Below, in pieces: positions 18,267 to 21,483 of a DNA stretch of 36,134 nucleotides. The first letter of the stretch is position 1, and the number at the start of each line of letters is the position of its first letter. The DNA lies in assembly GCA_902384525.1 (NCBI GenBank), contig CABMCA010000014.1:1-36134 (forward strand). The letters are read 5' to 3'. The notes under the pieces were generated by a model. That model was not told where the DNA came from. It worked only from the letters and a program-made list of their open reading frames with translations, and did no database searches. The position numbers and the translations under genes were made by a program. The DNA is from an uncultured archaeon. Its GTDB lineage: Archaea; Halobacteriota; Methanosarcinia; Methanosarcinales; Methanoperedenaceae.

Positions 18267-18542
18267 TCATACTTTATATTTTATATATATTAATACTGTT
18301 ATGGTAATGACCAGAGCTAATATGATTATAAAGGATAGATGGTTACCCTCGAGTACGAAGCCGAAAATCCCGTTATACCCTTCTTCTCCAGACTCGCCCG
18401 GCAGTCCTACTGCGTCTGAAAAGCGCTCTTCTATCCCTTTATCTCCTGTTATACTATAGATGAAAAGGCTCAATGCCACAAATATGAGCACGATAGCCCC
18501 GAATATAATGATCCCCTTTCTATTAATTTGCTGTAGCTGCAA
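18267..18542 (-). CDS. CbiN/NikN-like (PDGLE-type) small membrane subunit of a Ni/Co ECF importer
   Basis: This 91-residue protein has two membrane helices (about 10-30 and 68-88) enclosing an extracellular loop (GDKGIEERFSDAVGLPG). The spacing matches the PDGLE/CbiN-like component that helps the CbiM subunit load metal. The start is TTG at 18542, and the strong Shine-Dalgarno AGGAGGTGAT lies 9 bases before it inside the end of cbiM. It forms a transcription unit with cbiM. The metal (nickel or cobalt) cannot be decided from this subunit. Confidence 0.8.
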   Translation of the reverse strand: MQLQQINRKGIIIFGAIVLIFVALSLFIYSITGDKGIEERFSDAVGLPGESGEEGYNGIFGFVLEGNHLSFIIILALVITITVLIYIKYKV

Positions 18543-18548
18543 CTGGCA

Positions 18549-19184
18549 TCACCTCCTGAAAATGTCAGGCCTGACCCTCATAATATACGAGACCACATAT
18601 CCCGTGATAAAGGCTTCTATGATTGCAACGCCCATGTTGACGGCAGCGATTAGTGAGAGGTCATAGAGCGTAATCGGCTGACTGACGCCCTGTATGCCCG
18701 ATATGAGAATTATCAATATCATCGCAATATTGCCGAAAAGGAGTCCTATTATCGTTCCAATGCCTGCTTTAAAGAACGTATCGAGATTGAACTTTCCAAG
18801 AGCCTTGTATATGCTGTATGAAACTGTAACTTCGGTCATGCTTACGAGTAAGTTCGCTCCAATCATGCCCCATCCGCCATGACCGATCGCGGCCGATAAT
18901 ATGTTTACGATGAGCACAATGATGCCGCCAATCGCTGGCCCGGTAAGTATACCAATAAGGGAGGTCAGGTTCATATGTACACCTCCGAACAGGGGTATGC
19001 TGACCTGGAATATCGCAAATGAGGCGGACGTTAACATCGAAGCCAGCGTTATTGTTCTATTATCTATTTTCTTAACTTTCTTCAGCCAATACAGGCATAA
19101 GCCTAAAATTATGAGGGCTAAAATCCACCATGTAATAATCCATTGTATAGAAAATGCTCCATCCGGGAGATGTATATGTGCCAT
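18549..19184 (-). CDS. cbiM: CbiM/NikM substrate-binding membrane subunit of a Ni/Co ECF importer
   Basis: This 211-residue polytopic membrane protein starts MAHIHLPDGAF. The histidines next to the N-terminus match the metal-binding N-terminal region of CbiM/NikM proteins. The conserved IPLFGGVHMNLTSLIGILTGPAIG supplies another His, and GHGGWGMIGANLL follows. I chose the ATG at 19184, with GAGAGG 4 bases upstream, over a TTG at 19196. Its last sense codons AGG AGG also form the ribosome-binding site for the next gene. A palindromic operator and a TATA box lie 42-68 bases upstream, in the gap behind cbiO. Confidence 0.9.
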   Translation of the reverse strand: MAHIHLPDGAFSIQWIITWWILALIILGLCLYWLKKVKKIDNRTITLASMLTSASFAIFQVSIPLFGGVHMNLTSLIGILTGPAIGGIIVLIVNILSAAIGHGGWGMIGANLLVSMTEVTVSYSIYKALGKFNLDTFFKAGIGTIIGLLFGNIAMILIILISGIQGVSQPITLYDLSLIAAVNMGVAIIEAFITGYVVSYIMRVRPDIFRR

Positions 19185-19225
19185 GTTACCTCTCAAGCAG
19201 AGAAACTACCTCAACAATTATAAAT

Positions 19226-19244
19226 GTTTGGGTATGCCCCAAAC
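19226..19244 (-). promoter_or_regulatory. Palindromic operator in front of cbiM
   Basis: GTTTGGG-TATGC-CCCAAAC is an inverted repeat with 7-bp arms and a 5-base spacer. On the minus strand the TATA box TTATAAAG (plus 19244-19251) abuts it directly, so a bound repressor would block transcription. The same palindrome precedes the regulator gene at 21465-21483. Binding by the DtxR-like protein is inferred. Confidence 0.7.
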
Positions 19245-19276
19245 TTTATAACCCAAAAGAATTTTATCTTTTAATT

Positions 19277-20164
19277 TTACCTTATCATTGAAGCTATGGT
19301 TTTGATCAGTTCATCGGCAGTTATCGGGTAATTTTCCATAGAAATGCCCAGGTTCTTTTTTATTCCCTCGTATATTTGTACGACGTTTGGCTGCCGTAGT
19401 CCCGACTTTTCTATAAGATTTTTATCATAGAATATAGATGAAGGCCTGCCCTCTGCGATAATGGAGCCATCCTTCACAATGCAAACGCGGTCTGATATCC
19501 TAGCTGCCATATCAAGGTCATGGGTTGCTATAACGATGCTGATTCCGTGGTTATTTTTTAAGTTAAGGATGATATTCTCAACCATTTCGGCATGTACTGG
19601 ATCAAGGTCAGATGTGGGTTCATCCATCGCGATTACCTTTGGCCTCATGGCAAGAACTCCGGCAATACAAACCAGTCTTTTTTGACCACCGCTCAGGTAG
19701 CTTGGCATTTTATCTAACAGGTTTTCGGCACCGACTGCTTTTAATGCTCTTATAGCTTCCATCCTATCCTGTTCGATTGTTATTCCCATGTTTATGGGAC
19801 CAAACATAACGTCATCTAATACTGTAGGCGCAAACAGCTGATCATCAGATCTCTGGAATACTACGCCAACATCTCTCCAGATATTTATGTGACTCAGATC
19901 GAGCTTTTTACCCATGACTGTGATGCTACCGCTGGTCGGCCGGAGCAATCCGTTCAAATGTTCGATGAGCGTGGACTTGCCAGATCCATTAGGGCCGCAT
20001 AAAGCCACTATCTCTTTTTCAAGTACCCTGAAACACATTCCATGAATGCCCAAACTTCCGTCAGGATATATGTGGCTCGCACAATCTACATGAATAAGCT
20101 CGTTCGCATCGGCCGTACAAATATTACATACATGTTCATTTTTCATTTTTTGTGAAATTATCAA
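19277..20164 (-). CDS. cbiO: CbiO/NikO ATP-binding subunit of a Ni/Co ECF importer
   Basis: This cytoplasmic ABC ATPase of about 295 residues powers metal uptake. It has Walker A GPNGSGKST, Q-loop VVFQRSDDQLF, signature YLSGGQKRL, Walker B VIAMDEPTSDLD and switch ATHDLD. An N-terminal extension carries two Cys (CNICTAD). AAGGAG lies 8 bases before a TTG at 20164; a GTG at 20173 overlaps that site, and an ATG exists further in, so the exact start is uncertain. The gene follows cbiQ by a few bases and is part of the regulator-cbiQ-cbiO unit. Confidence 0.9.
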   Translation of the reverse strand: MIISQKMKNEHVCNICTADANELIHVDCASHIYPDGSLGIHGMCFRVLEKEIVALCGPNGSGKSTLIEHLNGLLRPTSGSITVMGKKLDLSHINIWRDVGVVFQRSDDQLFAPTVLDDVMFGPINMGITIEQDRMEAIRALKAVGAENLLDKMPSYLSGGQKRLVCIAGVLAMRPKVIAMDEPTSDLDPVHAEMVENIILNLKNNHGISIVIATHDLDMAARISDRVCIVKDGSIIAEGRPSSIFYDKNLIEKSGLRQPNVVQIYEGIKKNLGISMENYPITADELIKTIASMIR

Positions 20165-20176
20165 TCCGATCACTCC

Positions 20177-20983
20177 TTAAAACGGCAATTTAGCGAACCA
20201 TATGAGATATATCATCAGGATCGTAGCCATTAGCATGGTGAAGTATTCACCGATGCCTATTCTCGGTATCCTGGTCGCTGCTACATATCTTCCATTAAAT
20301 CCTCTTGCTTCCATGGCCTTATTGATTCTGTCTGCCCTATCGTACGACCGTATCATAGTCAGCGCAAACACTTCGGCAAACATCTTACTCTGCCTGCGCG
20401 CGCTTTTTAGAAGCCCTCCTCCCCTTGACCTGAGAGCTTTAATCATGGATTCGACCATCTTCAAAGTGATAAAAATAAATCTGTACGACATGAGAAATAC
20501 CTGGTCAATCGGAGAAGGAAATACACGGTATATCATGGCTGAGAAATAATTGTACCTGGTGGTCATAAGGAAAAATAATGAATATGTTACCGATGCGAGC
20601 GATTTAAACAGAAGTGTAAGTAGCAATAGCAGCCCATTATCTGTGATGGTGAGGGGAAGGTATGGCACATCCAAGGAAAATATTGGCTTTCCCGGCTCGT
20701 TCCAAATTAATATTAGAACCAGCGATAGAACAAATATAAAGGGCATCGTATACCATTGGAACAATTTTTTAATAGGCAGGCCCGATAAAAAGTATAATGC
20801 TAAAACTATCAGGTAAAGACACATGGCTAATATGAGACTTTTATCGAGCGAAACAAAAAGTATAATAAGCACAAGCATTAACCCTTTTGTCCATGGGCTG
20901 ATCCTGGAGAACAATGTAGTGCCCTTTTCACTGTAAAATGTGATAAGGTCAAGGTCTGGTATATGGGGGGATAGTTCGCTCAT
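20177..20983 (-). CDS. cbiQ: CbiQ/NikQ transmembrane coupling subunit of a Ni/Co ECF importer
   Basis: This ECF T-component of about 268 residues has several membrane helices (SPWTKGLMLVLIILFVSL, LILAMCLYLIVLALYFLSG) and two cytoplasmic coupling motifs: IKALRSRGGG and INKAMEARGFNGR, matching the Ala-Arg-Gly type contacts with the ATPase. The ATG at 20983 overlaps the regulator stop as ATGA, so I prefer it to a TTG at 20998. The overlap means coupled translation with the regulator. Confidence 0.9.
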   Translation of the reverse strand: MSELSPHIPDLDLITFYSEKGTTLFSRISPWTKGLMLVLIILFVSLDKSLILAMCLYLIVLALYFLSGLPIKKLFQWYTMPFIFVLSLVLILIWNEPGKPIFSLDVPYLPLTITDNGLLLLLTLLFKSLASVTYSLFFLMTTRYNYFSAMIYRVFPSPIDQVFLMSYRFIFITLKMVESMIKALRSRGGGLLKSARRQSKMFAEVFALTMIRSYDRADRINKAMEARGFNGRYVAATRIPRIGIGEYFTMLMATILMIYLIWFAKLPF

Positions 20984-21432
20984 CCGATAATGCCCCAATG
21001 ATTATCATCAGGACAGCAGCAGCATGTATCGTGTTTGATCCTGCCGCAGATTCCCACGTTCGGATGCCCCAGTGAATTGCATATCTTATCGACCACATCC
21101 TTGGATACGAGCCCTTCGAACTTCAAAGCCTCGCCGCAAGCTTCCTGTGCTGTAAGGCCATAATGCGAAAGCATTAATTCTATGATCCTGTGCCGCCTGA
21201 CCAGAAATTCAGCAAACTCCCTGCCCTTTGGAGTCAATCTGACTCCCCTGTACGGAATATGCTCGATAAGGTCGGTTGATGACATCTCCTGGATGGTCTT
21301 AGTTATAGTCGAAGGATCAAGTTTAAAATGCTCCGAGATATCAGTCGTATGTACGATACCATCCTTTTCCAGTATGTACTTCAAATATTCGCCTTTCTTC
21401 GGGCTTAATTCAAAACCATCAATATCTTTCAT
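20980..21432 (-). CDS. DtxR/MntR-family metal-dependent repressor, probably Ni/Co-responsive
   Basis: This 150-residue protein has an N-terminal winged helix (KKGEYLKYILEKDG, HTTDISEHFKLDPSTITKTIQEM, VRLTPKGREFAEFLVRRHRIIELML). A DtxR dimerisation and metal-binding region follows (GEALKFEGLVSKDVVDKICNSLGHP). The C-terminus is rich in Cys and His (CGRIKHDTCCCCPDDNHWG), which may bind metal. It is the first gene of the regulator-cbiQ-cbiO unit and its own promoter carries the same palindrome as cbiM, so it probably represses both when metal is plentiful. ATG 21432 fits the family N-terminus better than a start at 21474. Confidence 0.82.
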   Translation of the reverse strand: MKDIDGFELSPKKGEYLKYILEKDGIVHTTDISEHFKLDPSTITKTIQEMSSTDLIEHIPYRGVRLTPKGREFAEFLVRRHRIIELMLSHYGLTAQEACGEALKFEGLVSKDVVDKICNSLGHPNVGICGRIKHDTCCCCPDDNHWGIIG

Positions 21433-21464
21433 ATGATAAAATACGTTTATGTAGAATAAATAAG

Positions 21465-21483
21465 TTTTGGGCATGCCCCAAAC
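21465..21483 (-). promoter_or_regulatory. Palindromic operator in front of the DtxR-like regulator
   Basis: TTTTGGG-CATGC-CCCAAAC differs from the cbiM site only at the outermost 5' base and one spacer base, keeping the 7+5+7 layout. On the minus strand the TATA box TTTTATAA (plus 21490-21497) lies 6 bases upstream and the ATG 33 bases downstream. This arrangement fits autorepression. Confidence 0.7.

Follow-up and report, generated by a model that had tools for sequence, protein, structure and literature searches.

A predicted ZntR-type regulon of Methanoperedenaceae in which an ECF importer probably stands in place of ZnuABC

The order of the genes, the placement of two palindromes, and the distribution of both among relatives suggest that a DtxR-family regulator in an uncultured member of the Methanoperedenaceae controls its own gene and a metal importer. 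These genes lie in the window, which is the whole 36,134-nt stretch of DNA that was analyzed. Judged from the sequences, the prediction of one autoregulator with two operators is very secure, and given that arrangement zinc is likely to be the metal. A little less firmly, the cluster as a whole is read as a ZntR-type regulon whose importer is an ECF system instead of ZnuABC, probably for zinc. The type of regulator is already known; the new part is the ECF importer standing where ZnuABC would.

Gene Cluster and Operators

The regulator, the importer genes, and the promoter elements are all on the minus strand, with the gene order dtxR, cbiQ, cbiO, cbiM, and a 91-aa membrane protein. The features are as follows.

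21465..21483, minus strand: operator 1, reading GTTTGGGGCATGCCCAAAA on the coding strand; precedes dtxR-cbiQ-cbiO and is conserved among cbi-type promoters
21455..21464, minus strand: putative TATA-like element for dtxR, CTTATTTATT, abutting operator 1 on the downstream side
20980..21432, minus strand: dtxR, DtxR-family regulator of the ZntR-like subfamily, 150 aa (PF01325 and PF02742); presumed to bind both operators
20177..20983, minus strand: cbiQ, ECF T component (PF02361 and TIGR02454 above cut-off)
19277..20146, minus strand: cbiO, ECF ATPase (PF00005; best NCBIfam matches are ECF ATPases); an earlier start is possible, up to 20173
19226..19244, minus strand: operator 2, reading GTTTGGGGCATACCCAAAC on the coding strand; precedes cbiM and is conserved at the same place in relatives
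19216..19225, minus strand: putative TATA-like element for cbiM, ATTTATAATT, abutting operator 2 on the downstream side
18549..19184, minus strand: cbiM, S component, CbiM-like and of MAHxHL type (PF01891)
18267..18542, minus strand: small membrane protein, 91 aa, in a CbiN-like position; follows cbiM in most cbiQOM relatives

The start of dtxR is the ATG at 21432; the start of a longer open reading frame at 21474 falls within the palindrome and is not conserved. The end of dtxR overlaps the start of cbiQ at 20980-20983, so the two genes are probably on one transcript. The 91-aa protein has no Pfam or NCBIfam match and is a possible CbiN-like partner. It has two helices and is conserved across cbiQOM clusters.

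The palindromes described in the earlier note are present exactly at 19226-19244, where the letters of the window are GTTTGGGTATGCCCCAAAC, and at 21465-21483, where they are TTTTGGGCATGCCCCAAAC. Operator 1 lies in a short gap after tatC, and operator 2 in the 92-bp intergenic gap before cbiM. The pattern TTTGGG-N5-CCCAAA matches twice in the 36,134-nt window against 0.00 matches expected, and none of 100 shuffles contained it. Within the 2.92-Mb genome, the longer, 19-bp form is matched perfectly at these two sites in the window and nowhere else. A chance origin was ruled out by the shuffles and by the genome-wide uniqueness. An abundant palindrome was also ruled out, since the remaining TTTGG-N7-CCAAA matches checked in this and related genomes are mostly within coding sequence. 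These extra sites yielded no convincing additional members of the regulon among the genomes examined.

Conservation in Relatives

When about a hundred relatives were compared, the palindrome proved to be conserved in the promoters of the same genes. Regulator orthologues that are 83-93% identical, mostly in Candidatus Methanoperedens contigs, which marks the window's genome as Methanoperedens-like, carry it before dtxR, and more distant copies from the same genus (about 50-55% identical) have TTTGGAGTNACTCCAAA before the same gene. The same 17-bp frame, variably degenerate, precedes the regulator gene in many of 80 loci from Methanosarcinales and Methanomicrobiales, while in a few of the 80, such as Methanohalophilus, no clear palindrome was seen there by eye. 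The cbiM operator is exact in five Methanoperedens (the window, G029, G019, G016, and G021) and two Methanoregula, and in Methanothrix and Methanocella it departs from the pattern at one position. Two other Methanoperedens genomes, G002 and G003, do not have the second operator, and their gap between cbiO and cbiM is only tens of bases. The layout with two sites is repeated in further genomes sampled from the phylum, and in G087 and G348 these two are the only TTTGG-N7-CCAAA sites genome-wide.

The proposal that one regulator, its operator, and two target promoters are seen together is therefore well supported. The palindrome occurs before both dtxR and cbiM in several genera; it is conserved across two orders and rare elsewhere, rather than absent from orthologous promoters or abundant in the genome. 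The earlier note had called such a layout rarely visible in archaea, but it is common within this regulator subfamily.

Related importer and regulator genes also occur in other forms. One genome (G014, locus L293) carries a cbiQOM of the window type (86-87% identity), beside which neither a dtxR match nor the palindrome was found. In L277-L289, which are phylum relatives and probably haloarchaea, a MAHxHL CbiM is found with cbiQ and cbiO and with no dtxR or palindrome nearby. The regulator of G021 (L071:6415-6858) has a TAA near the C-terminal end of its frame, and its tail is shorter than that of the window regulator.

Exchange of cbiQOM with znuABC

The same regulator subfamily is found with two different importers. 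A DtxR-like ZntR of Methanosarcina (e.g., MA0022 of Methanosarcina acetivorans) was predicted by comparative genomics to be the zinc repressor of znuABC (Haas et al. 2009, PMC2770081). The probable link of the window regulator to ZntR is by position, its subfamily and operator being those found before znuABC in Methanosarcina and others. Between it and the Methanosarcina regulators preceding znuABC in the loci compared, identity is 50-56%. The target in the window differs, being a CbiQOM cluster of the ECF type whose second operator is internal. In most of the 80 relatives the regulator is followed by znuABC and not by cbi genes.

The exchange appears to have happened repeatedly. On a tree of 59 regulators, linkage to cbiQOM needs at least five changes, and five are forced by well-supported branches. 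In one Methanoperedens (L092/L174), znuABC lies between tatC and S2P/cutA, which is the place of cbiQOM in the window. In G448, from another family of the same order, dtxR is beside znuABC, cbiQOM is elsewhere, and the operator precedes znuA, cbiQ, and cbiM, so that one operator is common to both importer types within one genome.

Genomes with this cbiQOM nearly always lack a strong ZnuA. ZnuA (PF01297) is found in 12 of 34 Methanoperedenaceae, counts that are not independent of kinship; eleven of these have the znuABC-type dtxR, and the other (G022) has znuABC with no such dtxR nearby. None of the seven Methanoperedenaceae with window-type dtxR-cbiQOM has ZnuA. In cbiQOM genomes from outside the genus, ZnuA matches are absent or weak (up to 72 bits), with the exception of G448; among the genomes compared that lack cbiQOM, nearly all have strong matches of 130 bits or more. 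The weak matches are in Methanocella, Methanothrix, and one Methanoregula, and they could be zinc importers. The genome that contains the window has no match to ZnuA or ZIP, the zinc-importer families searched. G018, G020, G030, and about ten other Methanoperedenaceae have neither ZnuA nor window-type dtxR-cbiQOM, and ZIP matches are found in some of them only.

Promoter Geometry and Proposed Mechanism

The conserved TATA-like element of the dtxR promoter is downstream of the palindrome. The earlier note had placed both palindromes directly downstream of a TATA box. Each palindrome in the window does have an A/T-rich element upstream of it (GGTTATAAAG and TTTTATAATTTC on the minus strand), but these are not the conserved ones. 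Across 21 orthologous dtxR promoters, the TATA-like hexamers are concentrated 31-32 nt ahead of the start codon, just 3' of the palindrome. Conservation accordingly gives no support to the upstream element as the real dtxR TATA box. The distance from the end of the palindrome (TTTGG-N7-CCAAA) to the dtxR start is 32-35 bp in all 21 cbi-type promoters, and an A/T run at the position of the cbiM TATA element is common to five Methanoperedens cbiM promoters. A spacing of 31-32 nt between TATA and start codon is usual for leaderless archaeal transcripts. Since the TATA-like element comes right after the operator and at the leaderless distance, the operator probably lies over the BRE side of the TATA box. 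Among the znuABC-type promoters of Methanoperedens, 9-10 nt separate the end of the palindrome from the start codon. Either position would suit repression.

In the proposed mechanism, a metal-loaded dimer of the DtxR-family protein would bind TTTGG-N7-CCAAA at its own promoter, which serves dtxR-cbiQ-cbiO, and at the internal cbiM promoter. Bound next to the TATA element, on its BRE side, it would block assembly of TBP and TFB, and both transcripts would be silenced when metal is sufficient. At low metal the repressor would come off, and the ECF importer would be made from the CbiM S component, CbiQ, CbiO, and the small partner. The metal sensed and imported would most likely be zinc, with the ECF system in place of ZnuABC.

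Which Metal Is Transported

The regulator belongs to the DtxR/MntR family and has a set of invariant residues. Both PF01325 and PF02742 are above cut-off, the predicted fold is that of DtxR/MntR (pLDDT 84.8), and the top Foldseek matches are DtxR-family structures, the top PDB matches being manganese and iron regulators. A close structural match is SSO2273 of Sulfolobus (PDB 2x4h, deposited as a hypothetical protein), which has a cysteine aligned at C99 of the window regulator; the two proteins are only about 26% identical. Six residues, H81, C99, E106, C118, H123, and C129, do not vary among 47 members, znu-linked and cbi-linked alike. This invariant Cys/His set fits a single metal shared by both groups, and such a thiol-rich site would fit zinc and also cobalt or nickel.

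The CbiM protein of the window also departs from the characterized type. An N-terminal Met-His metal site is a feature of CbiM and NikM. Operator-linked CbiM proteins do not have it; instead, all 20 open with MAH[IV]HL, and a G-[VIL]-H motif follows farther along the chain. The window CbiM starts with MAHIHL, while nickel/cobalt-type paralogues in the genus start with MHI or similar. Its NCBIfam CbiM equivalog scores are 31-61 bits, well below the cut-offs of 172-401, and a search by sequence found no match among solved structures. For the operator-linked CbiM as one clade, the AU test gave p 0.096, with long branches in the tree and a window-type copy (L192) mislabelled as nickel/cobalt type.

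The earlier note had assigned the system to nickel or cobalt, and under that reading the regulator senses one of these metals and CbiQOM imports it. The CbiM and CbiQ matches (PF01891 and TIGR02454 above cut-off) and the high demand for nickel and cobalt in methanogens and their kin favor this, and the characterized CbiMNQO system moves cobalt or nickel (PMC7689651). The assignment nevertheless appears unlikely because znuABC stands under the same regulator in most relatives, the importers have been swapped repeatedly, and nearly all cbiQOM genomes are without strong ZnuA. The window shares CbiM, CbiQ, and CbiO with NikR-NikMNQO and CbiMNQO systems, but its regulator is DtxR-like rather than NikR and its CbiM has the altered N-terminus. 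The genome also has two further CbiM matches and two NikR_C matches, one strong and one weaker (G000:C3:8344-8574 and G000:C94:27545-27742). It is rather improbable that a zinc-sensing regulator controls an importer of cobalt, or another metal, that substitutes for zinc during zinc shortage. This would reconcile a zinc-type regulator with the CbiM family, and cobalt can replace zinc in some enzymes (PMC2770081), but with cbiQOM genomes mostly lacking strong ZnuA, and this genome having neither ZnuA nor ZIP, some other zinc importer would be needed.

Manganese and iron are the usual metals of DtxR/MntR regulators, and TroA/ZnuA-family importers can also carry them. That the regulator and both importer types serve manganese or iron is suggested by these facts and by the nearest named relatives being MntR and DtxR. 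The reading is very doubtful, however. In a hand alignment the MntR ligands Asp8, Glu99, and His103 are lost while the Cys/His-rich set is invariant, and zinc is the metal predicted for ZntR. The protein shares its fold and both Pfam domains with MntR, DtxR, and IdeR but is too short for the third (SH3-like) domain, and its curated MntR-proper score is 52-58 bits, under the cut-offs of 138-350. There is similarly little likelihood that the palindrome activates transcription, with the regulator bound just upstream of BRE/TATA and recruiting TFB. The palindrome is directly upstream of the TATA-like element, as activation would need, but its place in the znuABC-type Methanoperedens promoters is that of a repressor, and DtxR-family regulators of uptake are normally metal-dependent repressors.

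A zinc-carrying ECF system would have consequences beyond this genome. The broader proposal, that MAHxHL CbiM proteins are zinc ECF importers and repeatedly took the place of ZnuABC under a single ZntR-type regulator among methanogens and their methanotrophic relatives, seems to us evenly poised. A literature search found no description of a CbiM system that carries zinc. If the zinc reading is true, the annotation as cobalt ECF transporter is wrong for an entire CbiM subfamily, and the zinc supply of methanogens and Methanoperedens without ZnuA is explained. Should the metal be nickel or cobalt after all, the prediction of the operators is still strong enough for a direct test. The locus offers a compact and testable archaeal switch, with a regulator, two operators, defined promoter positions, and importers that were naturally exchanged while the regulator was kept.

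The regulator subfamily has further neighbors. In several Methanosarcinaceae (L079, L080, L083, L106, L112, and L127) it adjoins an MgtC-like membrane protein (named by eye) and no importer. In two MAGs named Methanosarcina (L102 and L145), the regulators adjoin divergent znuABC and, on a fully supported branch, are neighbors of the cbi-type clade of Methanoperedens, reflecting either misnamed MAGs or transfer.
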